NCBI GenBank assembly: GCA_963922205.1 | Contig: CAWUHX010000226.1 | Span: 1 to 64,000 of the forward strand | DNA length: 64,000 bases | Source of the DNA: Romanomermis culicivorax | Lineage: Eukaryota > Nematoda > Enoplea > Mermithida > Mermithidae | Direction of reading: 5' to 3' | Shown here: positions 22,893 to 56,600 of the stretch, piece by piece | Layout: each line of letters opens with the position of its first letter | Position numbering within the stretch: position 1 is the stretch's first letter | The notes under the pieces: generated by a model | The model's input: the letters and a program-made list of their open reading frames with translations, nothing else | Told to the model about the DNA's origin: nothing | Database searches by the model: none | Position numbers and translations under genes: made by a program

Positions 22893-24104
22893 GTATAGAT
22901 GGGTACAGTCCTACTTTGGCGTCCGTCTTAACTTGGCGCCCTTCTTACTTTGGCGTCCATCTTAACTTGGCGCCCGTTTTAACTTGGCGCCCAATGTTAT
23001 AGGCGCCAACATGAGATATTTGTCTAAACTTGGCGCCCGTCTTACCTTGGCGCCTATCTTAACTTGGCGCCCATTGATTTGCCTAATCCTTTTCAACATG
23101 TATTAACTTGGCGTCCATCTTAACTTGGCGCCCGTCTTAATTTGGCGCCCGTTCATGGCGTCTGGTTTTGTTTGTTGGTTTTTTAACCTCCTAGAAGATG
23201 CTCTTCAAAGTCAATCCACTAGACAATTTTTTCCTGTTTATTTATCAATCATCATTATAATGAACCCACCAATTTGGTTGGTTACTGACCTAAGAGGTAC
23301 CTAACGTGGCGCATATATGGCTCAATTTCTAACAACAATACAGCAAAATTTTCGGCATTTCCTGCAGCAGCCCTGCGTTGAATAAAATTAACTTTTGCAC
23401 GGGACATATTTGCATCAACCTGGACGTATCGGGCTTCTCGTTGTCTTGGCCTTTCACCCTGTTGCAGTTGCCTTATTCGTACTTGATTAACGTGATTAGT
23501 TTGCTGCAGCCAATCGAGAAAAGTATTCAGACGGGGGCGTGGGTGGCCAAAGTCGTGGTTAAGACGATTGTGCCATCCTTCGGCATGATTGGTTGGGCTA
23601 TCAGGGTGGCCGCTCTACTCATTGAGCTATTTATAGTTTTTCGAAATTATTTAAATGAAGGTTGGCTTTCTTTGGTACGTATAAATGCGTTTTTATTTTT
23701 TTTCTTTCAAATTTTTCCACGCAACAAAACTTCGACACGGAAATCATATTACTCGTATATTACGGAGTGATGTACGAGAATGTTACTCAAAAAAGGCAGT
23801 CTTGTTAAAGAAAAATGTAAAAAAAGAATGAAAGAAAAAGAATATAAGAGCAAAACAAAAGATAAAGAAAAATCAGGAAAAATAGTGAGATGGGCGCAAG
23901 GTCAACATACGGACGCCAAAGTAAGCCGGGCGCCAAGGTAAGACGGGCGCCAAGGTAAGACGGGCGCCAAGTTAAGACACTGCTTGGGCGCCAAAGTAAG
24001 ACAAGGCGCCAAGGTAATACGGACGCCAAGTTGAGACGGACGCCAAGTTAAGATGGGCGCCAAGTTGAGACGGGCGCTAAAGTGCGTCACAATCGTATAG
24101 ATGG
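22893..24104. mobile_element. Word-array foldback element, family A (word CTTGGCGCC), with 10 bp TSD
   Basis: The left arm (about 22912-23165) has about eleven TTGGCG words in units such as TCTTAACTTGGCGCCCG. The right arm (about 23890-24078) has the same word inverted (GGCGCCAAGTTAAGA), again roughly ten times. The whole is bracketed by a perfect 10 bp direct repeat, GTATAGATGG, at 22893-22902 and 24095-24104. A 9-11 bp duplication and long variable inverted ends fit Mutator-like or Foldback-like elements. The interior (23166-23889) has a coding-like segment. Spacing between words varies, so this is not a simple satellite. Confidence 0.8.
23378..23770 (+). CDS. Hypothetical ORF inside family A element (possible captured gene fragment)
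   Basis: The ORF encodes 130 residues with hydrophobic stretches (for example IVPSFGMIGWAIRVAALLIE). The DNA from about 23400 to 23640 is visibly more G+C-rich than its surroundings. Just upstream is TTTCCTGCAG, a good acceptor shape, and the open frame extends back to it. This looks like an exon carried inside the element, as in Pack-MULEs. I do not recognise the product. The C-terminal Phe-rich tail reads through A+T-rich DNA and is probably not coding. Confidence 0.35.
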   Translation: MNKINFCTGHICINLDVSGFSLSWPFTLLQLPYSYLINVISLLQPIEKSIQTGAWVAKVVVKTIVPSFGMIGWAIRVAALLIELFIVFRNYLNEGWLSLVRINAFLFFFFQIFPRNKTSTRKSYYSYITE

Positions 24105-27100
24105 TCCCTAACTGCTACAACCAACTAGAGAAGAAAAGTATCCGTAAACGCAGGTGGTATATTATTTCGTGAACATCTTTCTGCGCGTGGAGGCTCGTTT
24201 GGAAGAAGTCTATAAGGAAGAAATACAAGAAATAGGAAGTACAGCCGTCAAAGCCGATTATGCGAAGCTTTTTCTGTATAATTTTTTAATCCAAAAATGG
24301 TATATGAGGGTTAGTTGAGTAGGCTCACAAATTTTCAGTTCTATGCGACATATGGTTTAGCAGGAAATGGCAAAAATATCAAATAGTACTTTCTTTCCAC
24401 TCTTGATTTTTACAAGCATTTCAAGAAAAACAGACAATATGTCTGCTATATTCATAGCGTTTTCTGCCAAACCACACGCCACGCCATGGAACTGAAAATT
24501 TCCGACGTTATTCAACTAACCCTCAGAAATTTTTCAGGTACGATATTCTGCAGTAAAATCTTTCTATAGGCGATTTTCAACTGAATGCATGTTTTTGTTA
24601 TTTTTCATTATAGAAGCACTTTTTTAAACCACAGTATCGGAATCTTCCCATCAAGAATCAAAATGATTGAAAATCTGATAGGTTTTTCAACAAAAATGTT
24701 TCTTGCAACCATTCAAATTTGTTCGGCCGAACGATCATTACTTTTCGTCGAAAAATACAAAGAAGCCTCAAATAGCGAATCGAAAAGTTTGAGAGCAGTC
24801 AAAACGAATTTGCATAGGGACAAAATAGTAGATCATTTCATATAGATGTCAACACAAAGAAGAAAACGATCAAGCGAGAATTTCGAATAACTATCTGAAT
24901 TTATTTTATACAGGAAAATAGGCGATAATGATCAACCATATAAAAAAGCAGAGCGATCAACTGAGAACAAATGCAGGCAACTTTTTTGGGTCGTAGAACG
25001 CTAGAATGAGACTATTGCTGAAACAGAAAATCAACGCTTGAAAAATGATTGTAAAGAATAGAAAATGAAGCGCATTATTCCCCATTTGATTTTTTTGTCA
25101 CTATGTGGTTATAAAGTGTGACGAAAATACTTTCAAAGCTTTACCATACGTGCACGTTGAGGGTTGGGAATATTGAACCCCAGCGGATATTGATTGACCC
25201 TCAGCAGATCCTTGCTGACCCCAGCAAATTCGACCTACAGCAATGATCCAGAAGATGATGAAGGAAAATGAGCAAGAGATACGAATAGAAAGTCGTCATA
25301 AGGACGAAAATGATCCTTTACTTTCACGAATTTTCTAAACGAAGACTTGATTTCAAAGTGTTAATAACATTAACACTTGAAAAAATGCTGACCAAGCAGA
25401 GTTTCACATATTAGAATATAGATTGAAAAATGTGATGCTAAAACACCTTTCTTTTCGTTATCAAGAAACCTACTCCCTGTGCTGGCTGACAGCCGGCAGA
25501 AATTCTGTGCTGGCGCATGAGCTTTACTAGAGTATTTTTCTAAAAAAATATGAGATTTACCACTATAATCTCAACCAGTGTACGATTTTAACCTTTGTAT
25601 TAATTTAATCACAATTACTGTCCGGTGGCTAATTTTAAAACTGATCCAATAACTTGGACGCACCAGTAGCACTTGGAAAGTATTCTTGAGTTGATTCGCT
25701 TACAAATTTTTGTAATCAACGTCTCCTCGTTTTTGTGGTTCTCGATTGATCCAAAAAGTGAACGCGTTCCCATCAAGACAATGATTCCTTTATGCAGAAT
25801 ATTGGCTCTTAAACAACTGTTTCATTTCACCCACTGAATCGACTCAGCTATTACCCACAATTCTGAATAGGCCCACCGATAAGAGTTGGTGTTTTAGATT
25901 AACGATTTTCTGTGAAAATATTCACGAGTACAATTTTCTACAAGCAAGTCATTTTGTTGAAGAGAAACCTATGGCTTGATACTCGATGAATAGAAGCTGA
26001 ATTGAGTAAATCGTGAAAAAGTTCGAGTGCCTAAATCGGTACTGCATATAAAAACCGATGGTCATATCAACACTATTGGCTGAAATGATACAATGGCTGG
26101 AAATGAAAATTGAATGAATCACAACTGACTAACTAAAAAAGGGTGGTGATAAGTGATAACTAGAATAGCACAGTTTGCTCGTTAGCAACGATACCGTATC
26201 GACGATCAAATTTGATTTGCAGCGATCATCCAAGGAAACTTCAGCAAATTAATTTAATCTGAATGACATTTTACAATAGAAAACTGTCGGGAAATATGAA
26301 TCCGGTGAACGAGTAAAATTAAACTACATAACAACAGGCGCATGGAAGTTTCATGTAAAAAAGTAGCAGCTGAAAGGATCCGTATGTGTAGAAAGAATAT
26401 TTCGGACAAAAATTTTTATATCATCGAGTCCGCGCTTCAAAAAAGCCTGTCCAACTTTTTTTCGAATGGATAGACGCGACACACTTTCCTCTCATCAATA
26501 AAAAGTTAATAACTAAACCATCGGAGTCAAGCTATCTCTACAAGATACAAAAAAATTTGCATAATTCTGAGACGTTAAGAAACACGAGTCATGTCTTTAG
26601 AGCCGTTTAAAAGCTTTTCCGTAAATTGAGGGCGAGAAAGAGGGATGAAGCTTTTAGCTAAAACAAACATTTCGGAGATGGGACTGCGCAACTGGTTCAT
26701 CCCACTAAACTTTCAAGCGCGAAACAAAACAGAGAAAATTAGCTTAATTTTTATGCAAATAGACATATGTGTAACTTGGTCCAAAGTAAATTTTGCTTTG
26801 CGCAGAATTTGCAACTTGGTGACTCTCAATGTTTACCACACTCTACAGCACAACAATTTCTTTTGTAGTCCAAGCGCTATAAATTTGAGAACTACTTTCT
26901 ATCCAAGAAATGGCTTCGTGAAAAACTGAAGATATTTTTTGACTCAATAGATTCAATTGAGTTCGAAATGATTTTGTTGCTAAATACCATTGAAAATAGC
27001 GTCAAAAAGTTCAGTGATTCAACTCTACAAAATTGGATAAGCACTAAGCAGGCTGCTGATTACGAACGACTTTGAAAAAAATTTGCGGTAATGGTTCTTT

Positions 27101-27865: not shown

Positions 27866-27869
27866 ATTT

Positions 27870-28217: not shown

Positions 28218-29034
28218 ACATATAAGGGTAGGAATCATTAGCGCAGTCGGTTCAAAAGCGCAGCCAAATGTTCAAAAGCGCAGTCAATGCAAATGGGTTC
28301 AAAAGCGCAGTCAGTGATAAACTATTCCACAATAGTTTAAAGGGTCAAAAGCGCAGGCAACAGTCAGCTACAGACAAAATTTCACCTAAAAATAGATATA
28401 AATTTTTCGAAAACTGAGTGGGCATGCTACACGAGAATAATACTTAAGAAATGCATCTCATTAAGAAAAAGCGTCATTTTTTGGCCTCTTTTTGAGTGCT
28501 TCCAAAAATAGGCAACTTGTACATGGTGCTAAGTTCACTAGAGCGTTTTCGACTGTTGTTCCATCGTTTGTAAAATCGTTCTTCTCAATTTGCTCCAAAT
28601 TGTACCATCCCAATGAATTTCGGTGAAGCGAGCTACATGTTAAATCATTTTCTGAAAACCAAGATTCTTTCGTATGCAAATCCTTTAAATTCGAATCAAC
28701 TTTACCAATTTCGTAAAAAATCGCAACAAGTTTTGAGAACCACCGGTGAACTCAACGAATATTGGCTTTGTTTGGAATGCGAAAAAATTTTGAAAACTCG
28801 TGGAAAAGAAGATAATGAATTATATTCAACAATTATCGTTTGCAATGATACAATTTTGAAAAATCCAATGATTGGGCATCACAGTGATTGCGATTACAGA
28901 AATTTTGGCGCCGTGACGAAACATTTGACTGCGCTTTTGAAACTTTTGGCTGCGTTTTTGATGCTCCTGCGCTATTGAAACAACTGGCTGCGCTTTTGAA
29001 GCAACTGCGCTTTTGACCCCCCAATCACATATAA
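28218..29034. mobile_element. Word-array foldback element, family B (word TTCAAAAGCGCAG)
   Basis: The left arm (28238-28355) has about five copies of TTCAAAAGCGCAG(C/T)C; the right arm (28927-29016) has about five inverted copies (CTGCGCTTTTGAA). The direct repeat ACATATAA occurs at both edges (28218-28225 and 29027-29034) and may extend with one mismatch. The interior carries an ORF with a transposase-type zinc finger, so this is probably a deletion derivative of a Mutator-like transposon. Confidence 0.72.
28613..28978 (+). CDS. FLYWCH/GCM-like zinc-finger fragment of a MULE transposase (putative)
   Basis: The ORF has a Tyr-Trp-x-Cys-x2-Cys core (YWLCLEC, residues 50-56), basic residues KTRG just after it, Cys77, and a His-His-x2-Cys end (residues 89-93). 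This order resembles FLYWCH and WRKY-GCM1-class zinc fingers, which in animals often precede MULE transposase cores. The C-terminal 20 or so residues translate the right-arm array and are not expected to be functional. There is no DDE core, so it could at most bind DNA. The ATG is simply the first in the frame; the original start may lie upstream. Confidence 0.4.
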   Translation: MNFGEASYMLNHFLKTKILSYANPLNSNQLYQFRKKSQQVLRTTGELNEYWLCLECEKILKTRGKEDNELYSTIIVCNDTILKNPMIGHHSDCDYRNFGAVTKHLTALLKLLAAFLMLLRY

Positions 29035-31364
29035 TGGTCGGACATTCAAAGAACAGAAAATTATCGAACGCAGAAAAAAAGAGTTGAAGTCGAAAAAAGA
29101 TAACAGACGGCCAGAAAGTCGAGATCATTTGGTTAATCGAGTTGGTCACAGAACGGCAACAATCGAAGAATGAACGCAGTCGGAGAATCGAAGCGCTCGG
29201 AGAAGGTAAAGACAACGGACACAACGAGCTCTCAGCGCAACTTCTATTCAAAATTACGGAAGACTCATTGATCCTATTCAATATAATTTTTCTTCATGAT
29301 GATGCATACTCTTTGATCATCCTTTTCAACCATAAAAAGACTATCATAATTCATTTCGTGAACTCTAGTAGACTGCGTTTGGCGAAACTTCGACTGTTGC
29401 TTTTTAATTTGAGAGTTAAAGTAATATTCAAAAATCGGCGTCGGTAACACAAACGATCCACAACGATCATAAACTACAGAAATTCCAAATGATTAAACTT
29501 TTTCGAGACGAATGGAAGCAGGTTGTTCCTAAAAAACCGTATAATGCATCACAAACACTTCTACAGACAAACTTATGCGAAAAGGGTAATGGGACACCGA
29601 ACATCGGAAACTCGCGAGAAGTCAAACATTGAGTCAGCAAGTAGACATTTTCATGAATATTCAAAAACTATCCTATTTCGCCTCAATATGTAGGAGTTTT
29701 TCTCCAGTTAATGGAACGTCTACGCGGAAGAGTACAACTAAATGCGATGTAGTTTTGTACACATTATAATATGCAAATCAACCATCTATGAATCGTCGAC
29801 TGCGCATGGCTCTCTTTTTTCAAAAATTTGAGAGGTTAATATACCCGTCTTTCTCTCCTATTGATAAAAATGAGTATCGTTTTTTTAAATTTTACTGGAA
29901 AGTGTCGATGGCGAATAATAAATGTCGGGAAATCGAGACTGAAAAAAAGAAGACTTGCAAAAAACGATGGCAAGGATTGGCCTCTTTTACATTTGACGGT
30001 CAGTGAATTGTAGTGAAATTGACAGCCTCTAGTGTTAAGGATCCTCCTTGGCTACTCGCATAGTAAAAGATGTTTTCTAGTAAAATTTGACAATCATCTA
30101 GGGCATCAACATGAAACGCAAGTGCGAGAAATGTGCCAAAAAACGACGTTGAAGTGTAGCACACCATGATTTCCTATGAAAGAAGTAATTTTCATTAAAT
30201 AAATCTACGGTTGTCAGTTTATGAATACTGAATTTTGTAATGCATAGTTGAGTTTCAAATGAGCTCGAGGAGATTCAAAGATTGCTGTTGATAGATAGAT
30301 TTCCGGTCGAAAATAATAAAAAATACATAATTCTGTGCTGCGATTTAGCAACATGAATAGGTAACAAGCCTGAAAAGCCAAGCTAATTTGATTCCGTAAT
30401 GACAAAAAATTGTCCCCCTGAAAAAAAACCATATTTCGACGGGCAAACCATACACAATCCCCAAAAATTTAGAAAGCGAAATAGCAACAATAGACTATAC
30501 AAACAATGTAAATGCCAGAATATGTCATAATGCGAATTAGGGCTTCTCTTCGAACGGAAACAAGTTAGAAACTATCTTTTGGAAGAAGACATGTTCATTC
30601 TCAGATGGTTTTTCTGATTTTTGATAGAAAAAAACGACGAATTTGCAGACAGAAATCCAATTTTTGCTTAATTAACTTCTCGAAAAACCACAAGTTTCGC
30701 ACCAAGAAGCTCTATTAAAAACGGACAAATAAGACATTTCGTCACAATACTGCTCACGTCAATGTGCAAGAGCGCATCATTAGCACATGCAAAATGGATA
30801 TGTGACACCCCACCCGGTAAAAAAACCCGTGAAGATGAAAAATGTTGTTTGGTCATTCGACGCACACAGGCATACAACATTGTAGGATCGAAAACTAAAC
30901 AAAATGGCGGTCATAGGGGCCACACCAGAAAAGATGCTAGCTGCTAGCTAGAACTATTTTTAGCTAAAAGAATCGAGCTCCGACCTACCACCGAAAGCGA
31001 AGACGAGTATGTATATAAAGAACACATGGGTTTTTTTTGTCAAAAATGCTAAACACAATTTACTATTGACAAAAAGAAATAAAAGTAAGCATGAAAATGC
31101 TGCTCAGAACGTTAGAAATGGGATATTTGAGAAATTGGAGACCGGAGAATGTTTTGTCTTGACAAATGAGGCTTCTTTCTTCTCCTTGACTTGGAAAACG
31201 AGTTTTTGTTTGATTGATAGCTAATAATTTGAGCAAGCTTTTTTGTTTTTTCTGTTTGTTCTGATAACCAAGATAATGTGGTCTATCTGTTTGAAAAATA
31301 AATCCTTGAACGCGTCTTTGTCCATAAAAATTTGATGCAAGACACCCCGTTTATTGAAGGTTAG
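29035..31364. other. Intergenic DNA, no recognised gene
   Basis: Neither strand has a credible exon or a recognisable element; the short ORFs are low-complexity or lack any domain signature. Confidence 0.45.
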
Positions 31365-31442
31365 GAGTCAAAAGCGCAGCCGGTTTCAAAAGCGCAGCCG
31401 AAAATTTCAAAAGCGCAGCAGCTGTTTCAAAAGCGCAGCAAG
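31365..31442. repeat. Solo terminal array of family B
   Basis: Four copies of TCAAAAGCGCAGC sit in one orientation with no inverted partner within 2 kb. This is consistent with a truncated or recombined family B element. Confidence 0.65.
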
Positions 31443-31821
31443 TGTCTTTTTGTCTTCTGTTCGATTTAAACTGATTCGTTCCTGAAACAGGGCCGTTCAA
31501 AGACTTATGGACGTCGTAGAAGCTTATGAAATTCCGATTTTTGTACATCTCTATACTGAACTGTAAGGGATGTCCCGGGGCCGCCTTTTTTGAAATGATA
31601 TTTTTTAATTACTTTTTTACAGGCTTTAAAAACATATTTTTTACATAGAATTCCACAAACCTTTAACCAAATCAATGTCTGCATTTGCCCAGAAAAACAT
31701 GGAAAGTAATAAGACACAAAAAAACAAAAACAACCTAGCATAACACGAACTTTTAATTCTTAAAACGTTCCATGCATGGATTTCAGACCATGCGATTTTA
31801 GAATTCAGTTACGAACGGGCT

Positions 31822-32075: not shown

Positions 32076-32174
32076 CACAAGTGTCCGTATCCACATTCTT
32101 AATCCCTTACTGTCTGAAAAACGGATACGGACAAAGAGAGGAATAGGAGCTGAAGTGACCACAGTGTTGACCAT

Positions 32175-32575
32175 ACAAGTGCAGCATGAAAATTCTGCTG
32201 GTGATCAGCCAGAACATAGGGTGGGATAGAATTTTTTTCTTTCCTGATAACCAAACGAAAGATTTTCTAACATACAAGCAGCAAATTTTTCGATATATAT
32301 TAGTCAATTATGTGAAACATTTTACTTCGTCAGCACTTTTGAAATTTTTGGAATCAAGTATGATTTGTTCAGAAAAATCTTTGAACTACAGCATAATTAT
32401 GACGCTCTTGTCTTCCTTATTACTCATTTTCTTTCATCATCTTCTTGATCAATGCTAGGTGGTCGAATATGCTGAGGGTCAGCAAGAATCTGCTGAGGTT
32501 CAATTAAAATTTGTTGGAGGTCGAAATCTCCCAAACCCCCTCGATGTGCATGTGTTGATTGTCTTAGCACCTATT
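32175..32575 (-). repeat. Family I element, copy 2 (inverted)
   Basis: Reverse-complemented, it contains GATGATGAAAGAAAATGAG-type sequence and the words CCTCAGCAGATTCTTGCTGA, matching 25145-25525 and 41423-41850. It ends in ATGTGCATGTG, near the family's CATGCAC terminus. Confidence 0.65.
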
Positions 32576-32788: not shown

Positions 32789-33859
32789 CCGGTTGCATCA
32801 AAGCAGTTGAACTCGAGCTCGAGCTAAACCCGAGCTCGAGTTAAACCCGAGCTCGGGTTTAACTCGAGCTCAGTCTGTCGGATTGCATGAAAATTTTTGC
32901 CAATTTTTAAATCCGAGCTCGAGTTTAGCGCAATTGAGAAGTTAAACTTGGTCGTTAACAGGTTTAAGTCTGAGAGTGTTACTTCAATTTGCGTGTTGTT
33001 GTTTTTCCCATTTGTTATGCAACAGTTATACAATAGTTGGTTTCTTTTTCGTTGTTTATGCCTCATGAGTAATAAGAATGGACTTTCTGCGGCTGCGATT
33101 ACTTAATCGAAATGTGGAGTGAGATAGGGTTTTTCGAGACAGAAATAATGCCTTCGTCCGCTATACTTTTCTATTGTAATTCCTTCTTCCTGTGGTTTCT
33201 GGATTGCGGAGCACAGAATCAAGAATGTTGCGATGCTCCAAACTGAGTTCACGCAATCACAAATCTTCGTTTGCAGTCCAATTTGGCTAAGATTTTTTTT
33301 TCACTCGTATTTTAAAAAGTGGAATAAAAAAACATAGGGTTTCTTTCTTCGGCAAAAAAATGGACACAACAAATTGACTTTATGGCTATATGACACATAC
33401 AATGCAGAAAGTATGTACTGTGGCACATTTTTATTTCTAAAAAGTGTTATTTACTTATAGTCTGTTTTTCTTGAAATGCTTCTAATTGATGAAAATGGAA
33501 AGCAAGTAGTATTTCAGATTTTCTGATAAACCATATATCATATAGTAATGGAAATTTGTGAGCGTACTGACCTAACTTTTAACAATTTTTCGAGTGAAAA
33601 ATTTTACAGTAAGCGCTCTATGTAAACGATTTTGACAACGATACTGATTTGTGTCTCTTTTCTGCTTTGAAAGCATTTTATAAAAAACAGACTACAGTTG
33701 TGCCCGAGCTCGAGTTGAACCTCAGGTTTAGCTAAACTTGAGCTCGATATGTTTGATGCAACGCCTAAAAGTTAAACCTGACGTCGAGTTTAGCTAAACC
33801 TGAAGTTTAACAGTTCAAACCGAGCTCGAGTTCAGCCTCAGGTTTAGTTAATGCAACCG
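32789..33859. mobile_element. Word-array element, family F (word CCGAGCTCGAGTTTA)
   Basis: The termini are inverted: CCGGTTGCATCAA on the left and CGGTTGCATTAA (reverse-complemented) on the right. The left arm (32809-32935) and right arm (33705-33850) carry repeated GAGCTCGAG and AGGTTTAGCTAAAC words that are themselves partly palindromic. The interior contains a complete MITE M1 (33456-33696). No ORF of interest lies inside, and a target duplication is not clear. Confidence 0.7.
33456..33696. repeat. MITE M1, best-preserved termini
   Basis: The left end is TATAGTCTGTTTTTCTTGAA and the right end is TTTATAAAAAACAGACTACA, an inverted pair. TA flanks suggest a Tc1/mariner-type origin. It is nested in the family F element. 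Confidence 0.75.
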
Positions 33860-34399: not shown

Positions 34400-34493
34400 A
34401 AATAGGATGATTAACAGAATTAAAATCATTTGTTGATGATAGGCAAACCCGCCATATATTGTGTGGTATTGGAAATCAGCGTTTCGCAGTTGT

Positions 34494-39213: not shown

Positions 39214-39513
39214 TTGGTTGACTGCCTCAGTAAGTCGACCGTCCGGGCAAGTCAACTGTCCCACGAAGTCGATTATACTGATAAAACCAATTAGAACCAG
39301 ACTATCCTAAATCCCTCGACAATTTAATTATTCAAATTTGCTAGACCAGATTGCTTTCATGGCTTAGGTTTAGACTCAAGCTTAGACTTAGTTTCAAGCT
39401 TAGGTGTAGGTTCAGTCCTTGCCTTATGTGAAAAAGACATGCTAAACTGCACTTCTGGAACAGTCGACCTACTGGAATAGTCGACTTACTGTGATCGTCG
39501 AATTATTAGGACA
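39214..39513. mobile_element. Word-array element, family D (word AAGTCGACTGTCC)
   Basis: The ends are inverted: TTGGTTGACTGCC and, reverse-complemented, TTGGTCGACTGTCC. There are three or four GTCGAC-type words per arm. The interior contains a separate short tandem, GGCTTAGGTTTAGACTCAAG and variants (39358-39420). No target duplication was recognised. Confidence 0.6.
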
Positions 39514-41290
39514 GTCGACCAAGTACCGTTAACATATTGTTTCATACTTACCAAAATGACCAGGCTGCACAATGCCAATAGGATTATCAACGACCGTTTC
39601 ATTTTCTATGTAAATGATAAAAAATTGACGGAATTAGTCTTCCTAAGAAACGAAAGGGAAATTCTTGAATGCAATGTAGCGAATCCAAAAGTTGAAATGA
39701 CATTTAAAAAACAGCCCATACGTCCCACTGTCCAGACGGTGTTCCCATTACCCTCAACTATGATTGTCATTCTTAATCATTTTAGTGTGTCATTGTCTAT
39801 GAAGTAAGCATATCAAAGCAGGTGTTAGGTAAACCAAGGAGTACTTTTGCTTCATCAGCTCGGAACGATGTGCAACTTTTTGCATGCAACTCATTCTTGA
39901 AATACTTCATATAACTACCTCTTTGAAGACAAGAGCAATTTACTGTTAATTTTTCTATTTGACATAGATACAGTGAAATCTAACTTAAACAAAATCACAG
40001 AAGATTGGGATTATTGACAATTATGAAGAATGACAGTATGTAAAAAAAAACTTCTCCATAGACCAAAATCAATTTATTTTGAAACGACCCGATGAAAGTA
40101 TGCTCAACCCAGAAGAATTAGTAAGAATATTACTGTAATGAAAGGAAGAAATATCTTGTTAATCACCGGAAAACAAGCAAAATTATCATTTTTTTCAGTA
40201 ATCCGGTAAAATCGTCAAAATTTTCGAAGTGAATGAGATATATGTATAGTATTACACGATAGGGCAAAAGCCAAGTTACGAAAAAAATATCCAATATCTC
40301 TAGAAAAGGAATAAGTACAGAGTTACAGAGTGATGTTCTTCACCAATTTGTCGATATTTAGTTAAGCTTCCAAACCTTAGCAGCAATCAGGCCCATTCTC
40401 GTGCAATTGACATGGTCAACTATCAATATCCCGCCAATAGCGAGTAGGCTTCAATCCATTAACCCTCTGCTCAGACGTCTCAATATATGAAATGTTTACC
40501 TTATCATTCAAGAATGAACAAAAGTAACACGTCTCCCACTAGCTGCAGGACTTATTCTAAGTGACTAAGCAGCCCTGTTCCCAGCCTGAGTTATGCAACT
40601 TCATTTTATCATTGTTGGTCGACTGTGTCTACCTTTTTTCAATAAGGTGCTTCCAAATAACGAGAATAAGTATTGCCCTCAAATTTGTTAATTTTTTAAT
40701 GCAAAATTATTTGAGGTAACTCGCAAATTTGCAGCTCATTATGGAAAGTGGTTTGGTAGCAAATTATAAAAGTATAAAATGTAAATGGCGTCCAGTTTAC
40801 TTTTTAAAGAGTATTTTTAAAAAGCATACTACACTATATCGCGCTAGGAATCACAATTTACAAACGCTGGATGAAGGAGTCGAAGGCAGACATTACATAC
40901 TTACCAATTATATGCAAGGAATAACTCGAATCTACAATGAAGTCGCCGAATGAACTGAAATATGCCCTTAGAAAATGTCTTTTTTGGTTTTAGAGAAACA
41001 TAAATAGACCTTAAATTAAATAAGTCAGCTGAAACATGCTACACACAATTTAAATTGTCAGTTTGAATAAATAAAATGCAACTAAGGCACAATGTGCAGA
41101 TGTTTATTGCAGGTGTGTCGTTATTCGATGCGTATTGAATGGGGTCCCCGCTGAAAATAAAACCCTTTCACTAAATTTTGGTTATCTACTGCAAACTGAT
41201 CAAACAATAAAAGCATGGAACATTTTAATGTATTGTGTAGCAATGTATAAAAAAAACATAATATGATAAAAGTATGCTTGTCCTATGTTG
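39514..41290. other. Spacer with a weak Ig-like ORF and a degenerate MITE
   Basis: A plus-strand ORF at 39556-39807 has a short Ig-like pattern but no consistent partner exon. A degenerate M1 copy lies at about 40620-40790. An AATAAATAAAA polyA-like motif occurs at about 41066. No gene model holds together. Confidence 0.35.
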
Positions 41291-41361
41291 CCGTAGGCCA
41301 GGTTTCATGCAAGGGACTTAAGCTCTAGATGAGCTTCAGCTCAAGCTGTAGCCTAACTTAC

Positions 41362-42004
41362 CGTTGGCAAAAATCCGACTACGGATTACTAGACTATTCC
41401 AAAGACTATAGTCTTTAACATACATGCACGTGGGCGGGGGTTTGGGGGGTTTTGACACCCAGCAGATTTTTATTTATCCCCAGCAGATTCTTGCTGACCC
41501 CCAGCGGATTTGACTCCCCTAGCAATGATTGTGAAGTTGACGAAGGAAAATGATCAAAAGAGAAGAGAAAGTCGTCATGAAAATGGAAATGATGCTGTAG
41601 TTTAACAATTTTTCTAAACAAAGCATACTTGATTCCAAAAGAGTAACATTAAAACTGTAAAAAGTGCTGTCTAAGCAAATTATTTAACATATCTGACTAA
41701 TATAGTTGTAAGAACATGCTGTTTGGAAGTTAGAAAATCTTTCTAAGACCTTTCATTTCATTATCAAGAATGAAAAAAATTTTGTATTCCACCCCCCCCC
41801 CTCCTGGCTGACCCCCAGCAGAATTTCTATGCTGTGCATGTATGGTCTTTAATCTTTGGACTATAGTCCCAGTATCTTTTTCAGGCCGTGATCCTTGAAA
41901 AGCCTATAGTATTTTTTAAAAGATAGTGCGCACCATAGTTCGGTAGTCTCCTCAAGAGGTATTATGTAGTCCCAGACTACAGTCCGGACCTTCGCCAACG
42001 CTAT
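41362..42004. mobile_element. Word-array element, family H (word GACTATAGTC), inside family G
   Basis: The termini are inverted: CGTTGGCAAAAATCCGACTA on the left and CGTTGGCGAAGGTCCGGACT (reverse-complemented) on the right. Repeated ACTATAGTC and GACTAC words follow on each side. The flanks CTAACTTA (left) and CTAACTTTA (right, after CTAT) resemble an 8-9 bp target duplication. Family I is nested inside. Confidence 0.65.
41423..41850 (+). repeat. Family I element (word CCCCAGCAGA), copy 3, inside family H
   Basis: It begins CATGCACGTGGGCGG and ends with CCCCCAGCAGAATTTCTATG followed by GTGCATG, giving short inverted CATGCAC ends. The interior matches copies at 25145-25525 and 32175-32575. 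Confidence 0.7.
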
Positions 42005-42120
42005 CTAACTTTATATATTATACATTTGCAGTTAATAGGCAGCTCAGCTGCAGCTTAACTTATACACAAAACACATCGAGAAACTTAAGCTGAAACTTAA
42101 GCTAGATTAACTTTTTGCTA

Positions 42121-44050: not shown

Positions 44051-44079
44051 AGTTTCAATTTTATTCCAGAGTCCAGACC

Positions 44080-44260
44080 ACCGTTTTTTTTTCCTCAAAT
44101 GGGGTCTTTTGAGGAAAAAAAATTCGAAATGAGGAAAAAAATTTTGGGTATGGTTCTCATTGAGGAAAAAATTTTGGGGAATTCCAAACCGAAAAGATGC
44201 GTTTTGGTGGACTTGAAAGGGTCAAAATCTCAAAATTTTCCGGCGCTTCGCGCCGGTCAC
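44080..44260. repeat. Hairpin-tailed word-array element, word TTGAGGAAAA
   Basis: Alternating TTTCCTC and GAGGAAA words are separated by runs of A/T and TTTTGGG. They are followed by the shared tail module (GCGTTTTGGTGGACTTGAAA, TCAAAATCTCAAAATTTTC) and the GC hairpin at 44240-44256. Confidence 0.65.
44240..44256. repeat. GC-rich hairpin CCGGCGCTTCGCGCCGG
   Basis: A 6-7 bp stem with a short loop, preceded by AAAATTTT. It is one of about a dozen such hairpins in the window. Confidence 0.8.
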
Positions 44261-44604
44261 GGGTACAATCTTGATTATTTTCTATCAGGCGCGGCCATTA
44301 GCATATCTACTTCGACTTACTAATTAATGCTCAACAGTTTCTATCTATCAAGTTAGCTCGTTTCATTTTCTAATCGTTAGCAGTCAATTATGTCGCCCAA
44401 TATTGAGATTTTTCATCAATTTTCTCAATTTTTTCTCTCGATGTTTGGAATTTTTTAAACGTCTGCAACCTGAACTTTTGCGTTTATTGAAGATAGAAAT
44501 TGAAGGCATCATTCTAGACTGCGATTTTAGAACTTCTGTTTATGAATATCTGTTGGAGAGATTTATTTTCCAGCGTTTTAGAATATAAAAACTGAAAAAT
44601 TTTC

Positions 44605-44621
44605 CTGGCGCTTCGCGCCAG
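44605..44621. repeat. GC-rich hairpin with compensatory change
   Basis: CTGGCGCTTCGCGCCAG has a T/A pair in place of the C/G pair of the usual stem. The change is matched on both sides, so the stem is kept. Confidence 0.75.
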
Positions 44622-44725
44622 AATGGGAAACAAATTATACTTCATAAGTCGGATTTTAATTTATTTCCCAACGTTGTGGAGGTTCAATTTACAGCGTTGT
44701 AGAAAGTGAAAATCCAAAAAATTTT

Positions 44726-44742
44726 CCGGCGCTCCGCGCCGG
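44726..44742. repeat. GC-rich hairpin, loop variant
   Basis: CCGGCGCTCCGCGCCGG differs from the common form only in the loop. Confidence 0.75.
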
Positions 44743-44999
44743 ACCAAGAACTAAATAAAATTAGATGATTCTGATGAGAGCCATAGAAATGTTGATAGCG
44801 GATAAATTCCTGTGAGAACTCTATCGTTATTCGTTAACATGCTTCACCCGCTCCTGTAGAACACCAATATATTCTTCATGAGCTCATTTTGGCTAATATA
44901 ACTAGAAATTTCTCAATTTTTTTTCTAATTTTTGCAGGTTTCTGACTTCAAATACAACAAAATGCATGGGTATGCTCCTAAAATGCATTAAAAAGCATC

Positions 45000-45295
45000 C
45001 GTAGCCACATTATAAGCGTTTTTAAAAATGTGGAAAATTTTTGGAAAATGAGGAAAAAAATTTTGGGTCCGGTTCTCATGTGGAAAAAATCTTCGAGGAA
45101 AAAAAAAAACGGTGGTCCAGACCACTGTTTTTTTCCACATTTGCACTATAATGTGGGAAAAAAATCTGGAATGTGGAAAAAATTTCTGAGGTCTTTCCAC
45201 AAATGTGGAAGAAAAATTTGGGATTTTCATATTGAAAAGTGGTGCATTTTAGGAGGTTCAAATCTCAAAATATTCCGGCGCTTCGCGCCGGCCAC
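45000..45295. repeat. Hairpin-tailed word-array element, word ATGTGGAAAA
   Basis: At least six TTTCCACA/TGTGGAAA words alternate in orientation, with TTTGGG-type spacers. They are followed by GTGGTGCATTTTAGGAGGTT, TCAAATCTCAAAATATTC and the GC hairpin at 45275-45291. The layout matches 44080-44260, but the word differs consistently at every position. Confidence 0.7.
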
Positions 45296-45297
45296 TG

Positions 45298-47165
45298 TTT
45301 TTTTTCCACGAACTTTTTTCCACAAATGTGGAAATGGGTCAAATTTTTTTTCCACATGTGGAAAGATTTTTTTTCGTCTTAAAATCCGTTTTTTGGCTTA
45401 AAAATGCTCACAGACGCTTTATCGCACTGTTTTTGAGCTTTTTCAAGCCTTCCGGTGTTTTTTTTTAGAGAAGTTAATTCATTAAAATTGGAGAAAAAAA
45501 TTGAAATGTTCGACTTAAAAGCCTAATCTACAAGTGTTGTTGAACAAATTTTCTAGCAAACTATCCAAGAGCATAATTGACTTGAATGACACAAGAAATC
45601 AATGGTCAAGTCCTCTATGATGACAAGTGAAAGCCCAAAAAAGATGGTACTTTCAGGCGCAAAGCGCAGGAAAATTTTTTGGGTATATTGACACTCTGGG
45701 ATGATGCTGGAAAATCATTTTTTCGAACATTTATTTCAAGAATTAGATTCCAATTTAGTGTTCAAGAGTCGTAATTTCTAGAATTTTACTTGAAAAATTT
45801 TAAAATGTATAATTTATTTGTAAACTCTCATGAACTTGGTCGAAAATATATGAGTAAGAAGAGTATAAATTTCGGAAAGATATTTTCATGAAGCTTGAAT
45901 TGATTTTACGTCAGAAAAGAAATAATTGCATCAAAAGGCATAGAGACTTGACGTATTGATCTTTCTCAAAAGGAAAAAATGCGAATCTTCATCAACTATT
46001 ATGATAATATATTGAAGATTACCAATTAAAACATGAGATAATACGTTTAAGATGATGAAAACTATTAAAGATTAAATGGTTAGTGAAGGTAGACATGATA
46101 AAAGCCGCGCCTGAGCTACTTAATGAATAATGATGATTATTGAAGTTATAACCGGCGCGAAGCGCCGGAAAATTTTGAAATTTGGACCTCCTGAAATGCA
46201 CCAAAATGCATCTTTTCAATATGAAAACCCCAAATTTTTCTTCCACATTTGTGGAAAGACCTCAAAAATTTTTTCCACATTCCAGATTTTTTTTCCACAT
46301 TATAGTGCAAATGTGGAAAAAAAACAGTGGCGCCGGCTATAACTTTAATAATCATCATTATTTATTAAGTAGCTCAGGCGCGGCTTTTATCATGTCTATC
46401 TTCATTTATCACTCAATCTATAATATATTTTTCATCATCTTAAACGTAGTATCTCATGTTTTAATTGGTAATCTTCAATGTTTTATCATATTTAATGAAG
46501 ATTCGTATTTTTTTCCTTTTGAGAAAGATCAATACGTCAAGTCTCTATGCTTTATAACGCGATTATTTCTTTGCTAACGTAAAATCAATTTAAAAGCTTC
46601 ATGGAAATATCTTTCGGAAATTTATACTCTTCTTAAATCTTACTCATATATTTTCCACCAAGTTCATGAGAGTTTACAAATAAATTACAGATTTTAAAAT
46701 TTTTTTAGTAAAATTCTAGAAATTACGACTCTTGAACACAAAATTGGAATCTAATTCTTGAAATAAATGTTCGGAAAATTGATTTTCCAGCATCCCAGAA
46801 TGTCAATATACCCAATCTTTTTTGGGCTTTCACGTGTCATCATAGAGGACTTGACCATTGATTTCTTGTGTAATTCAAGTCAATTATGCTCTTGGATAGT
46901 TTGCTAGAAAATTTGTTCAACAATGCTTGTAGATTAGGCTTTTAAGTCGAACATTTCAATTTTTTCTTCAATTTTAATGAATTAACTTCCCTAAAAACAC
47001 CGGAAGGCTTGAAAAAGCTCAAAAATAGTGCGATAAAGCGTCTGTAAGCATTTTTAAGCGAAAAAACGAGGATTTTAAGAGGAAAAAAATTTTTTCCACA
47101 TGTGGAAAAAAAATTTGACCTCTTTACACATTTGTGGAAAGATGTTCGTGGAAAAAAAGTGTTCC
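45298..47165. repeat. Large palindrome, about 1.87 kb, arms about 0.84 kb
   Basis: The left arm from about 45298 to 46150 is repeated as its reverse complement from about 46330 to 47165. Paired landmarks include AAGCCTTCCGGTGTTTTT at about 45450 with AAAAACACCGGAAGGCTT at about 46995, and AAAGCCGCGCCTGAGCTACT at about 46100 with its complement at about 46365. The centre (46152-46340) is a hairpin-tailed GTGGAAA word array. The arms differ by scattered substitutions and small indels, so this is not a simple assembly mirror. Confidence 0.85.
46152..46340 (-). repeat. Hairpin-tailed GTGGAAA element at the palindrome centre
   Basis: Starts with the GC hairpin CCGGCGCGAAGCGCCGG (46152-46168), then the tail module inverted (CCTCCTGAAATGCACCAAAA), then TTTCCACA/TGTGGAAA words, ending GTGGAAAAAAAACAGTGG. 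It is the inverted counterpart of 45120-45295. Confidence 0.7.
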
Positions 47166-47250
47166 AGACAGTTTTTTTGCACACAGCAACCAAATTTCGG
47201 GCTGTGCAACCAAATTTTTCTGCCAAGTTGCACAATGCAACTTGACGCCT
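47165..47250. repeat. Word array, word TGCAACCAAATTT
   Basis: Contains GCAACCAAATTTCGGGCTGT, GTGCAACCAAATTTTTCTGC and inverted AAGTTGCACAATGCAACTTG. The spacing and A/T context match the GTGGAAA arrays, but the word is TGCAAC. It is followed by a GC hairpin at 47337-47353. Confidence 0.55.
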
Positions 47251-47336
47251 GACTGCTCTTTCGATTAGGTATTAGGGTTTTCTGTCCTGAGATGCATTTT
47301 TATACGTTCTCTAAAACAGGAAAAAGTGAAAATTTT

Positions 47337-47353
47337 CCGGCGCTTCGCGCCGG
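47337..47353. repeat. GC-rich hairpin CCGGCGCTTCGCGCCGG
   Basis: Identical in stem and loop to 44240-44256, and again preceded by AAAATTTT. Confidence 0.8.
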
Positions 47354-47934
47354 GTTTCAATTCATTTATAATTTTCAATAATATTCTAGTGCGCGGTTAG
47401 AAAAGGTCTTCGAGTTAGTGCTTACAGGTTCTAATTATCAACGTATTATGGATAAATGTTTGATTCTGTATTGTTTGTTGACGAATTTGATGAAAACTAA
47501 CATTTTTATCGGTCATTTTCTCAAAAATTTTTTGCGATCCTCATAAAAATTTGGACTTTCATGCCTATAACCTTTTGAGTTTAGAAATTTCTGCCGATTG
47601 AAAGATCCAAATTCTTAGTGGCTTGCCCAGTTTTTGAATTTTAGTTTTTCCGACTGAAAATTCGTTAAATTCACTGAGAAATCAAACCTTCTGTCTGGGA
47701 AATAAAAGGTAAAAAGATTCATTTTCCAGCGTTCTTGAATATTGAAATGCATAAAAAATTTTCTTCGCTACGCGCCGAACACAGTCTAGTCATATTAATC
47801 TTTTAATTTTCTCTCCAAAACTCAGAAAATTGAGTTTTGAATATCTAAAACTGACGCGGATCGAATGAAATACTAGGAAATTAGTTTGCAATAGTTTTTC
47901 CGATAAATTTAAGCAAATTTGTCCATTTCAGAGT

Positions 47935-48010
47935 GAGCAACCAAAAATATATCTGTGCAACCAAAATTTTTCCCCAAGTTGCACATTGCAACCTGGCCTG
48001 TGCAAAAAAC
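47935..48010. repeat. Word array, word TGCAACCAAA, second copy
   Basis: Contains GAGCAACCAAAAATATATCT, GTGCAACCAAAATTTTTCCC and inverted AAGTTGCACATTGCAACCTG. It parallels 47165-47250. Confidence 0.5.
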
Positions 48011-48044
48011 CTGATTCCAGATCCCACCTCCTCACCTAACCAAC

Positions 48045-48205
48045 TCACTGTTTTTTTCCACATTTGCTTGCACTATTTATGTGGAAAAAAATTGGAATGT
48101 GGAGAAAATTTTTGAGGTCTTTTCACAAGAAAATTGGAAAAATTTGGGGTTTTTATATTGAAAAGATAATTTTGGCGCAGTTTAGGTAGGAGGTCCGAAA
48201 GCTGT
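48045..48205. repeat. Hairpin-tailed word-array element, word GTGGAAA, copy without hairpin
   Basis: CACTGTTTTTTTCCACATTT opens the copy, ATGTGGAAAAAAATTGGAAT follows, and the tail module (ATATTGAAAAGATAATTTTG, GGAGGTCCGAAAG) closes it. The GC hairpin is missing. Confidence 0.6.
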
Positions 48206-48290
48206 GTTTTTTTTGTGCACGGACATTTGTGCCAATTGGCAGAATGAGCCAAAAAAATTTCTGCCAATGGCACAAAAAAATTTGTCAGCC
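48205..48290. repeat. Word array, word TTGGCAGAA / TGTGCCAA
   Basis: TTTGTGCCAATTGGCAGAAT, then GAGCCAAAAAAATTTCTGCC and AATGGCACAAAAAAATTTGT. The A/T spacer pattern matches neighbouring arrays with yet another word. Confidence 0.5.
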
Positions 48291-50050
48291 TTAAAACATA
48301 CTGAAAACCTTTAAAAGGTTTTATGCCAATAGTTTGATAAAAACATACATACTAAGGTTAAGTGGGGTGACATTGATCAGGGGCGAGGTTGGTCAGAGTA
48401 TGGCATTTGATAACTATGAGATCAGCAGGTCATTTTTGCTGTGTAGACAAAAAACAGGCTTGTAGAACTTTTTTTGTTTTTTTGCTCACCCACCCCCTAC
48501 CCCCTGGAAAAAAAGTCCATGGACCCTTCCCCCTGGAAAATTCTTGTCGTGCATGTCTGGTACCCACCCTCCCCCAAATTCAGAAAAATTGGAAGTTTAC
48601 ACCCCTCCCCACCCAACTGGTCGGACCTCTTACACGTATGAATCCAGGTCTTTTTCGGTTTTGGCAACCAGAAGCCAAATGGTTCCCAGGCCTAAATTTG
48701 TAGGGACCAAAAGACCAAGCCAAAAATGTTTAATTGGAGAATATCGAAAATGGGCTTGTAGCACGCTGTGGAACGTGTATAATTAAATTATTTGAAAATC
48801 AGTTGATCCGTGTTCAAAAAAATTACTGTTCAAAATTTTATTCCGAAGCAGCGTTTTTCGTTTACAGTCTTCTTTCTACATGTTCAAAGATCGGCCAAGA
48901 AATCCTTGTGCAAAGAAAATTTTTTTAATGCAAAAAATACGATTCTGTTCTTATTTTTCAGCTTCTGTTCTTACTCTTCTGTTGTTTCCTATATCTTTCC
49001 TGCGCTACGCAACGAAAATTATTTTACATTCTGACACTAAACGAAAATCAATTTAACGATAACTAAGCCAATAAAGATTAGGTTCGAAAACAATCATTTT
49101 ACAAATTGAGAAATATATTGATAGCTTCACGAGTTTGAAAAAATTTATGAAAATCACCTCCATTATGATTATAAATTCAAACTCGGCTCCATATTCAAAA
49201 TAATAGTTACAAAAAAGTTAGAAAAATTGATATTTTAACCTTCTAAATGCACCAAAATTCATCTTATCCTCGGCGAACACCCACGTTTTTCCCTTTTTCG
49301 AAAATTATTTTCCCCAGAAAGTTTGATTTGTAGAATAAAAGTGGAAAGACCAATCCGAAAAATTATAGAATGAAATCCGGCGCAAAGCGCCAAAAATTTT
49401 TCGGTATTTTATGATTTTAGAGCCTGTAAAACACTTACTCTAAATCTAAAACTGAATAACTGAATAAAAATAACTATAATTCACTAAAATATAAATAAAA
49501 GAGTCAGAATATTAGGAGCAAAAATGGCTCCTAATATTTTGATAAAATTTTAGGAGCCATTTCCAGATTTTTAGGGGTCCAGGCCCCTCAAATAACTAAA
49601 AAAGCCTGTATGAATCATACGTGTAGTTGGAGGTATTGTAAAGAAGGGTCTCCAATTTCTGAAATCCCCTAAATTGTGGTATCCCTCATTGCTCGGAAAA
49701 TTTGGCAGAAAGGGCCTTTTCGACACCCAACCAACTGGTCGGACCTCTTACTGGTATGGCCGGAATGAAAATGAAATTACAATCTATTAATGTAATTTGA
49801 ATTTCTTTCTTATTATCGTGAAAATTTATTTCCCAGGTTAGTTTTTTGTTTTTCCCCTCTCTAGGTAATTGATGTGCGTACGTCTAATTTTTTCTCCAAT
49901 TTGTGCATTTTTTGGACAAAAAATTGGATGAGAAAAAAATTGTTTTGGGCTTTTCCTCCATTTAAAGGGAAAATTTGTGTTTCGATATAAAAAAATACGC
50001 CGGCATGGCTGTAGGCGCCCAGGCGTGGCCAGAATTTCTTATTATGAAGC
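48291..50050. other. Intergenic repeat-rich DNA upstream of fli-1
   Basis: Contains a C-rich stretch at 48485-48620, a GGCTCCTAATATTTT inverted pair at 49525-49560, a truncated GC hairpin (CCGGCGCAAAGCGCC, 49378-49392) and CAACTGGTCGGACCTCTTAC present twice (about 48614 and 49732). No gene is recognised. Confidence 0.45.
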
Positions 50051-50059
50051 GCAATCTGT

Positions 50060-50220
50060 AGTATTTATTTTGTGCCAATACATGTTTTTGGCAAAAAAAG
50101 ATTGGAATGGCACAAAAAATTTGAGTGTTTGTTCCAAGTGACACAAATAAAAAAACTAAATTTTCTTAATTTTCAGTCATTTTAGACTGAAAACGTAAAT
50201 TTTTTCCGCGCTTCACGCGC
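50060..50220. repeat. Word array TGGCACAAA with degenerate hairpin tail
   Basis: TTTTGTGCCAATACATG, TTTTTGGCAAAAAAAG and AATGGCACAAAAAATTTGAG are followed by TTTTTTCCGCGCTTCACGCG, a decayed form of the GC hairpin. Confidence 0.5.
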
Positions 50221-53698: not shown

Positions 53699-56600
53699 GT
53701 ATGACAGAGCCGAGATTAAAGTTCTCAGGAATTGAAAATTCTATTTGCAATAAAAACGTGGTGGGTGACAAATCCTAGAAATCTTGAAGATTTGTAAAAT
53801 TTCCATCGACATTTTTTGTGCATTAATATGATGTTCATAACATACACACGGGCGTAGATTTTAACGTGTATAATCAGATTAAAACTGACCATATAGAATT
53901 TTTTTCCGAAAAACTGGCAGATAATATTTGTTCAACTTTTTAACACAAGGTCATTTCTATCGGTGAAAAATTGGCGCATACAGCATTTCAGTAGCCAAAA
54001 ATCCATGTGCAGCAAACCTTAAACCTAGCAAAATTTGTTATAAATCTTACAGATCAGTATTTTTTGTGTAAAGAACTTAAATGATCAAAAATTAACCTAT
54101 GACAAACTTTTTGGTAAAAATTGCACTCATGAGTAAAATTTTTAGGGTGTATTAAATATATACAAGTATATACACTCCATGTATACATTGTGTGCATATA
54201 TGATAATGCTTGTTTAATGTTATTTATTCGGACTGACTATAGAATTCTAGATAGTAATTCTATTGTATGTACTAATATCATTATGAATCAGTACAAAAAT
54301 GGTCAAACTTTATATAAATACCTATATTTTACGTGTACTGTTTTAAGTCCAATTGGTCGTTGATTCATGTCTCCGTACTGATCCTTCAGATGTGAATAGA
54401 GTAACCTTTCTTCCGGAATGTCCGGCAATTGCTGGCCTAAAGCTCGGCCCGGATGTAATCCCGGACTCTCAACCTCTATGAGCTTGTGCGGTCATAAACT
54501 GAAGGATTATAATTTCTGCAAAACTAACGGTCCAGTAGAAAACCACCCAAATTCTTCTGTAGGTAAACTTTTTCGTCAATTTTTTTCATTTAAATGTCGA
54601 ATTTCTCCGAAGATATATATTTGTTTATTTTACGGTTGGAAAATTTTTACCAGATTCAGTAAAATTTTGTACTCGTAATAGAAAACAAAAGTTCCGTTTA
54701 GGACTAGAGAAATCTAATTTTAAATATATTTAAAATCGAAAATTTTAAGATCAAGGATTTTTCTGCAGACGGTTCATTAAAGCGCCACTCTTTTGTCCTT
54801 AACTAGAGTTTTGCCGCCGAGCTTGTTCAAAATTTTTAAATTTTGTCAAAAATATAAAACTCAGTTTTTTCATATTCCAGGTTCATCCAGTCCATTACCC
54901 AACGCCGGTAAAGAAAACGACCCCGTTGCGCGTAAAATTCGCATGCTTCGCACTCGTAAGGGCCAAGCGGCAGCAGCGGCGGCGGCCGCTGGTGGCGCTC
55001 ACGAAGCCGACAACGACCAACAAAAGATTTTGACCGGTTTAACGGAAGTGGCCAAAGAGCGGACGCGCGCCGAACAGGCACTGGAAGAAAGTCGCCGACA
55101 TAGCCGTCTTGCATCGAAGCGGTGGGACGAAGTGTTGGAAAAACCGCCGGTCGACTATAGCGATTTATTCGATCCCGATGTCGGCCAGATTCCCGGTTAG
55201 AAAATTGATGCATTCACGTTTTGTTGTTATTGATATTACGTCATAAAAATTTTTTTAACAATGCAGCCATAGTAGCTGCTATTTTCTTTTTTTAGAAATC
55301 TGCAGTATTGAGGTATTTTCTGTGTATTTTTTATCTTATTTCAGGAATTACCGTTTGGGAAATCGAAAACTTTTTGCCTAATTTGTTAGACGAAGTTTTT
55401 CATGGAAAGTTTTATGAAGGCGATTGCTATATAGTTCTGAAGACATATTTGGATCAGGCTAATAATTTAAATTGGCAAATTTATTATTGGATCGGTGAGC
55501 GGGCCACTTTGGACAAGAAAGCTTGTTCGGCTATACACGCAGTGAATTTGAGGTAAAATTTCAATTTTCGATCGGCGTCGTAGAATATGATGTTCATTTT
55601 CGGTAAGATTGCACTTCCCTTCAACATTCTAGCTAAAAAGTCGGGTGTCGATACTCTGTTTTTTCCGTACCAGACGGATTTATTTCGGTTGATACGGAAA
55701 AGTTTTACAGAGTTTTCCGTACGGTACGGGATTTTTAATGTGATTTTATTATGAAAACTGGTGCAAAACGTAAATTTCTTTATAGAATTCCGTGAAGTCC
55801 GTACGGTACGGATCAACCGGTGTACGAAAAAGCACTGTGTCGATTTTTTGTTTTTTAGCATCGCAAAACATGGCAGGTTGTGTTTAATAATCATAAAATA
55901 CTATAAGTAATCAGCACATAATCGCAATCATCTAGGGGTGAATTCATTTTACGTTTCTTTTGTACTAAAGTTTATTTAACCGTAAACACCCAAAGTTACG
56001 TTCATTATCAATCTTGTCGCAAACTCCTCCAATAAGTTATTATAAGTTTTTCTCGACAGTCAACTAAAATCAACATATGTATAATTTTTTGATCGGTTAG
56101 AAGCTGAATTATCTGAAGTGAACAAGAGAATTCATATTTATTTGCATTTAAATGTAGTTGCTAAATACTCAAAAGCTCTCCTGAGCATACAATTTCGAAA
56201 ACGATGACCTGAAATACCTTAATTTTAGAAATTCGATTGGAATGTAAATATCTTTGTAATAGCTGTTTATAAGCTAAGCGTTGAGTTCTGTCCGTATTCT
56301 GAAACTTTTCCAATCCATAGTCTACAAACTTTGCCTTGCTTTCCATTTCAGAAACTTCTTGGGTGCCTCCTGTCGTACAATTCGCGAAGAAATGAACGAA
56401 GAATCGGATGAATTTTTAGATCTTTTCAACGGCGAATTAGTTTACGTTTCCGGTGGCCGAACGTGTAGCGGTTTTTATAATTTGGAAGAATTGAATTATC
56501 CCGCTCGACTCTATAGAGTGACGACGGAAGGTCCCGGTCTTCATTTGGAGGCGGTCAGCGTCAATGTCGAATCCTTAGATCCTAGATTCGTCTTTTTCAT

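Follow-up and report, generated by a model that had tools for sequence, protein, structure and literature searches.

The data on a 64-kb window of the nematode Romanomermis culicivorax (positions 1-64000 of contig C226, accession CAWUHX010000226.1) imply that its arrays of short words, repeated with loose spacing at one end of an element and inverted at the other, form the ends of DNA transposons that move by cut and paste. According to this explanation, to which we give a probability of about 80%, the copies in the window are mostly non-autonomous, their ends consist of two modules, a tip and the array behind it, and the families with the words CTTGGCGCC (A), TTCAAAAGCGCAG (B), GACAATTGGGTGAA and CATAACCGCGAA are Mutator-like elements (MULEs) with FLYWCH or RYYR-CCHC-like zinc fingers. 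The genome searched is a 359-Mb assembly of 595 contigs.

We scanned the window for inverted words (9-mers with at most one mismatch, at least three in each arm, with 60-2500 b between the arms), masking the tandem gene at 34400-38200 and using 20 block-wise dinucleotide shuffles as control. The window gave 15 merged inverted rows and all 20 shuffles together gave 1; for same-strand partner rows the counts were 12 and 5. Among the inverted rows are A (22910-24083), B (28239-29019), C (32809-33846) and D (38349-39172), as well as two clusters that had not been listed before, at 44.1-48.1 kb and 48226-50147. The original prediction, made from the letters of the window, had placed at least nine elements on one plan: of the nine listed, four (A, B, C, D) pass this strict scan, whereas the other five are weaker and fail it. 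Of the words it had named, AAGTCGACTGTCC and AGCTTAAGCTGAA are nowhere matched exactly in the window, and GACTATAGTC, CCCCAGCAGA and CCGTACGGTACGG match exactly at two places each. Since GAGCTCGAG and GACTATAGTC are palindromes in full or nearly so, the term inverted has little meaning for them. When 20 10-kb stretches at set positions across 11 contigs were surveyed, we found 7 inverted rows in 6 stretches (two in L032 and one each in L035, L038, L039, L040 and L043), while 5 shuffles of all 20 stretches gave none. Therefore, the design is not restricted to the window. The same survey gave 13 same-strand rows against the 7 inverted ones, several being sub-blocks of one array, and the words of L032 and L038 are palindromic.

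The window copy of family B (28226..29026) has the tips GGGTAGG and GATTGGG and an exact 8-b target duplication, ACATATAA, at 28218-28225 and 29027-29034. A search of the assembly gave 237 candidates, 40 of which were scored, each with an alignment covering at least some 475 of the 817 b, and 20 of the scored loci, picked among the better rows, were fetched with their flanks. Searching by motif alone found both ends in 20 of the 21 copies, window included (L027 is without the right end); the 8-bp duplication is exact in 12 of these 20 and present with at most one mismatch in 15. Only 2 of 380 control cross-pairings match, both being, by the letters, L012 paired with L023. The number of units varies between copies (about 4-9 on the left, about 4-8 on the right), and a block of roughly 100 b is doubled in some of them. 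Inside the window copy lies a remnant of an RYYR-CCHC-like zinc finger (28610..28906, + strand; PF23674, E 2.8e-5), 42% identical over 98 aa to that of the MULE locus L060. B is linked to the MULE catalytic domain solely through the locus L059, which carries such a domain and, on one side, B's word in 8 copies on the same strand. At 31357..31722 stands one end of a further element with this word (array 31367-31441), and its homology to L059 runs past the array: the fragment 31368-31722 is 71% identical to L059 over 363 b.

Element A (22901..24094) is built of CTTGGCGCC words in 17-b units, with arms at 22910-23164 and 23888-24083, tips GGGTACAG and, in reverse complement, GATTGTG, and an exact 8-b duplication, GTATAGAT, at 22893-22900 and 24095-24102. 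At least 160 matches to it exist in the assembly (40 of 773 candidates were scored). Rows of its left part, up to 96-100% identical, mostly begin at query base 6-10 and those of its right part mostly finish at 1201-1206, the duplication predicting ends at 9 and 1202 in a query that held just 8-10 b beyond them. In copies on contigs C72, C17, C209 and C7 the left and right parts are about 3.2 kb apart, so that the copy in the window must have lost internal sequence by deletion. The 4.4-kb copy on C72 (112916-117286) encloses a MULE hit at 114290-114496 (28.7 bits, cut-off 27.6). What remains inside the window copy is the C-terminal piece of a MULE transposase (23282..23614, - strand), which has no Pfam match of its own and which BLASTP and tblastn align with the C-terminal ends of the transposases of L050 (E 5e-6) and L059 (E 1.7e-12). 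A zinc finger was not seen for A. The coding pieces of A and B, compared with a protein database that includes nematode proteins, gave 159 and 24 candidates, respectively, none at E up to 0.1, and viral contigs scanned with a fragment of A and with one pattern each from A and B gave no relatives.

Scoring 150 of 248 candidates in the assembly yielded at least 122 MULE matches with E not above 0.001, and 12 of these loci, mainly chosen for long open frames, were fetched. Word arrays stand on both sides in six of them (L049, L050, L058, L060, L052, L057) and on one side in three (L051, L056, L059). L049, L050 and L058 form one family, here called the FLYWCH family, with arrays of GACAATTGGGTGAA spaced mainly by 15 or 17 b: one arm has 11 units in all three, and the other has 14, 9 and 15, respectively. 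Their target duplications are of 10 b and exact in L050, of 9 b with a one-base offset in L049, and of 10 b with one mismatch in L058; like those of A and B, these lengths agree with the 8-11 bp of MULEs. Pfam finds the FLYWCH and MULE domains of L050 in separate frames; L051 and L056, with one arm each, are relatives of this family. L060, one end of which is outside the fetched stretch, has RYYR-CCHC-like and MULE domains between arrays of CATAACCGCGAA. The MULE domain PF10551 is above its cut-off in L050, L059 and L060. In line with the original prediction, MULE genes with different zinc fingers stand between different words. L052, L053, L054 and L057 represent another MULE type; Pfam, applied to L052 and L053 of this type, finds a ZSWIM-like catalytic domain in both and SWIM in L053. 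L052 and L057 carry clusters of TTGTGTACA inside long inverted repeats, L053 has such repeats without a word cluster, and L054 has neither. L055 has FLYWCH and MULE domains and no array in the 3.4 kb examined.

The outermost tips are common to families that differ in their words. A, B and the FLYWCH family have GGGT at one end and GAT at the other; in L050, where the duplication sets the ends, the tips are GGGTCTAC and GATCCC, and L060 shows a single edge, GGGTATAG, whose place no duplication confirms. The words themselves were compared in 120 pairs of 16 units. The FLYWCH family against L035 gave p 0.12, and a few other pairs reached p 0.01 or less, as is expected among 120 comparisons; by this test the words behind the tips of A, B, the FLYWCH family and L060 are unrelated. 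Conservation is lower in the finger than in the catalytic part of both pairs of transposases that were compared, in line with the original idea of changing recognition domains: 41/98 against 132/225 identical residues in the first (p 0.007), where the finger of B and the catalytic part of L059 come from different copies, and 28/80 against 109/233 in the second (p 0.07).

A second group of elements in the window, for the most part absent from the original prediction, ends in tips like CACTGTTTTTTT. J1 (44079..45114; word GAGGAAAA in mixed orientation) has the tip CACCGTTTTTTT at both ends and the duplication GTCCAGAC at 44071-44078 and 45115-45122. J2 (45293..46329; word GTGGAAAA) has CACTGTTTTTTT at both ends and the duplication GCGCCGGC, and belongs to a palindromic block at 45123-47161. 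K (47169..48013; TGTGCAACC and other words) has the tips CAGTTTTTTTGC and CAGGTTTTTTGC and a duplication, TTCCAGA, that is mismatched at one of its 8 positions. L (48202..50160; word TTTGTGCCA) has the left tip CTGTGTTTTTTTT, an uncertain right end and no established duplication. I (55653..55836; word CCGTACGG) is only 184 b long and has the exact 8-b duplication GTGTCGAT at 55645-55652 and 55837-55844. Tips of this kind were also found at L037, L039 and L043 of the survey. With tip patterns written after the window had been seen, 7 of 44 end pairs carry 8-bp duplications at no more than one mismatch (5 of them exact, 3 of the 7 outside the window) against 0 of 176 shifted controls. K is multicopy: of 5324 candidates 40 were scored, and 23 of these matches, the window copy included, reach from no more than 8 b off one end to no more than 4 b off the other, which is no test of the ends because the query stopped there.

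Tips beginning with CA and the duplication consensus nTnnnnAn are marks of hAT elements. The tip of I begins with CA in another register only, and the duplications have T at position 2 in 5 of 7 cases and A at position 7 in 4 of 7. The hAT dimerisation domain PF05699 is very common in the assembly, with at least 150 matches, all those listed being above the cut-off (150 of 1837 candidates scored). The tips and the length of the duplications make it probable that I, J1, J2, K and L are hAT elements; as none of the hAT genes could be located between ends of this kind, we label them hAT-like. At 44071-48021, J1 is followed by the palindromic J block and then by K, bounded by GTCCAGAC, GTCCAGAC, TTCCAGAC and ATTCCAGA, as if by repeated insertion into nearly one target. 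A hairpin-like motif near CCGGCGCTTCGCGCCGG recurs inside J and K (at about 44241, 44721, 45275, 46152 and 47337), and the J2 duplication GCGCCGGC falls inside one such motif.

The original prediction had assumed a single design set. Several of its elements are transposons, but the ends in the window fall into more than one tip group, one linked to MULEs and another hAT-like. Its claim that some elements have target duplications holds, these being exact and 8 bp long at A, B, I and the two copies of element H at 25.1 and 41.4 kb. A, B and K are multicopy, and the duplications of B exceed those in its cross-pairing control. The claim that both arms share the word is correct for A, B and the FLYWCH family, in which word and spacer are common to both arms, but in J1 and K the words are not in clean inverted orientation.

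Several observations weigh against the explanation as a whole. Wrong-way words occur in A, K and J1: A has 4 such units per arm, and for the words given above the right arm of J1 has 0 inverted and 5 same-strand units and K has 1 and 4. Three of the 12 MULE loci (L053, L054, L055) have no word array in the stretches fetched. The RYYR-CCHC scores of B and L060 (24.4 and 20.8 bits) are under the Pfam curated cut-off of 27. Pfam finds no hAT domain in 44079-50162, and no pair of ends in the second group was seen to enclose a hAT gene. B and L060 have related fingers, but no similarity between their words could be detected (p 0.13), which counts against a simple co-change of word and finger. Finally, the finger is significantly more divergent than the catalytic part in just one of the two pairs.

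On this explanation, the two modules would have different tasks. The tip, short and common to the families of one group, would be the place where the catalytic domain cuts; the array behind it, made of a family-specific word, would be bound by the N-terminal zinc finger of the cognate transposase, and many weak sites would sum to specific recognition. Families with different fingers and words may then work without cross-reaction, and the word would evolve in concert within an element. More tentatively, and somewhat short of an even chance, a conserved cutting tip could have been combined with an exchangeable array, finger and word having changed together, with MULE and parallel hAT-like families as mutually private systems. 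If this is true, the genome is a natural set of pairs of zinc finger and DNA word that could reveal the rules by which FLYWCH and RYYR-CCHC fingers recognise DNA. With many families that have common tips and differing words and fingers, the co-change of word and finger becomes testable, and this would serve the question of how a transposase gains independence from its relatives and from the non-autonomous copies that use it.

One could argue that slippage or unequal repair made minisatellites grow within the transposon ends, and that the arrays are nothing else, with no binding role and with words set by chance. The differing unit numbers between copies and arms of B agree with such growth, and the 13 same-strand rows of the survey indicate that tandem growth happens in this genome anyway. 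However, the same word and spacer recur in opposite orientation in both arms, with clean units per arm and none wrong-way in B (5+5), the FLYWCH family (11+9), L035 (19+8), L040 (7+4) and L043 (9+9), and chance growth at one end would not transfer the word to the other. Additionally, the arrays are kept on both sides of coding DNA in L049, L050 and L058. We thus consider minisatellite growth unlikely. It is less probable still that what counts is DNA structure, with the inverted arms letting the element fold back on itself whatever the sequence of their word: the arms are complementary, an 84% palindrome of 1.9 kb stands at 45299-47158 and Foldback elements take their name from folding back, but pairing requires complementarity and not one repeated word, and the unit counts and spacing, unlike between the arms of one element, would make for poor pairing.

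Transposon ends with word arrays have known counterparts. Tm1 of root-knot nematodes, a Mutator/Foldback element, has inverted ends of 1-9 units with a motif of about 14 bp, short asymmetric terminal motifs outside the units, 8-10 bp duplications and a FLYWCH and MULE transposase, and its copies are mostly non-autonomous (PMC3169594). Our elements share with it the nematode host, the composite inverted ends, the outer tips, FLYWCH with MULE, and the mostly non-autonomous copies. They differ in having several word families instead of one, GGGT/GAT tips, mainly 8-bp duplications and RYYR-CCHC-like fingers besides FLYWCH, and the Tm1 motifs A1, A2 and C, compared by eye as printed, are absent from the tips and words of A, B, L050 and L060. 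Therefore, these families work like Tm1 and are not members of it. A, B and the FLYWCH family also have the Foldback-type structure of composite inverted ends with variable short tandem repeats. The set had been thought to be without precedent in its diversity, which does not hold: 10 of 12 long-terminal-inverted-repeat Muta families of Aedes aegypti, MULEs as well, have subterminal tandem repeats of 9-15 bp, FLYWCH is found in 13 of 14, duplications are of 8-9 bp, and Muta1 transposes in yeast (PMC5225508). As here, one genome contains many MULE families with subterminal repeats and FLYWCH; the passages on Muta contain no statement of tips common to families and no comparison of repeats with fingers (PMC5225508).

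The mechanism proposed here, a zinc finger acting on several short end sites, is that of Galileo, where a THAP domain binds repeats in the ends (PMC3688188), and of Hermes, where BED domains bind subterminal repeats (PMC10368747). Galileo (P superfamily) and Hermes (hAT) are outside the MULE superfamily, and the CACTGTTTTTTT-tipped group is a likely, though not a proven, member of hAT. Among MULEs, Rehavkus and Phantom resemble our elements by description in having minisatellites near the transposase gene and 8-10 bp duplications; the published table gives Rehavkus a PHD finger (PMC6446971). The coral CMITE was rejected as a parallel, being formed by piggyBac elements. Among openly licensed papers we found no report of one genome having many word families with common tips, nor any paper using the term RYYR-CCHC. 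Thus the design itself is already known from Tm1 and Muta; new here are the many word families in one genome, the tips common across them and the links between word and transposase.

The window holds further elements. C (32791..33858; word GAGCTCGAG) has the inverted edges GGTTGCAT, D (ATGCGCCA) is at 38345..39175, and E, with degenerate GTCGACTGTCC in both arms, is at 39214..39521. F (41300..42108; degenerate AGCTTAAGCTGAA-like words) resembles survey locus L032 in word and edges. A target duplication was looked for at C, D, E and F in the window and none was found. The original prediction had listed 41311-42108 and 41362-42004 among its elements; three families are nested at 41300-42108, H having inserted within G and G within F. 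G (41362..42004; word GACTATAGTC) has the 7-b repeat CTAACTT outside both ends, which is weak given the search space. H (word CCCCAGCAGA) is present in three copies: at 25145..25519 with the exact duplication AGCTTTAC (25137-25144 and 25520-25527), at 32171..32551 in opposite orientation with the 7-b duplication GTGTTGA, and at 41419..41844 within G with the exact duplication GTCTTTAA (41411-41418 and 41845-41852). Six-frame Pfam scans of 44079-50162, 32793-33862 and 42120-43902, with stops read as X, gave no convincing match. C, F, L032 and an edge of L043 may form a further tip group like GGTTKCATYAAAG, and L039 and L052 another like GGCAGTGTCTATT; L039 has the 9-b repeat CTTAGTCTC.

A family of miniature inverted-repeat transposable elements of about 245 b, with edges like TATAGTCTGTTTTT, occupies 9307-9557, 31823-32075, 33450-33694 and at least five more places in the window, the copy at 33450-33694 being inserted in C. 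The inverted pair 31827-32075/33450-33690, tried as the arms of C, was rejected, since it belongs to this separate family.

The window also contains the flightless-1 gene (52954-60960, + strand), with leucine-rich repeats in frame at 52954-53778 and a weak gelsolin-like match at 60496-60960. Among the best 120 of 681 matches, its N-terminal part is closest to proteins of Trichuris muris (65%) and Plectus sambesii (64%), followed by Trichinella and arthropods, which points to a nematode as the probable host. Element I lies inside the span of this gene, presumably in an intron. On the opposite strand, an open frame of 1213 codons (34494-38135), read from TTG, consists largely of repeats of about 88 residues, rich in Lys, Thr and Ser, in 264-b units.

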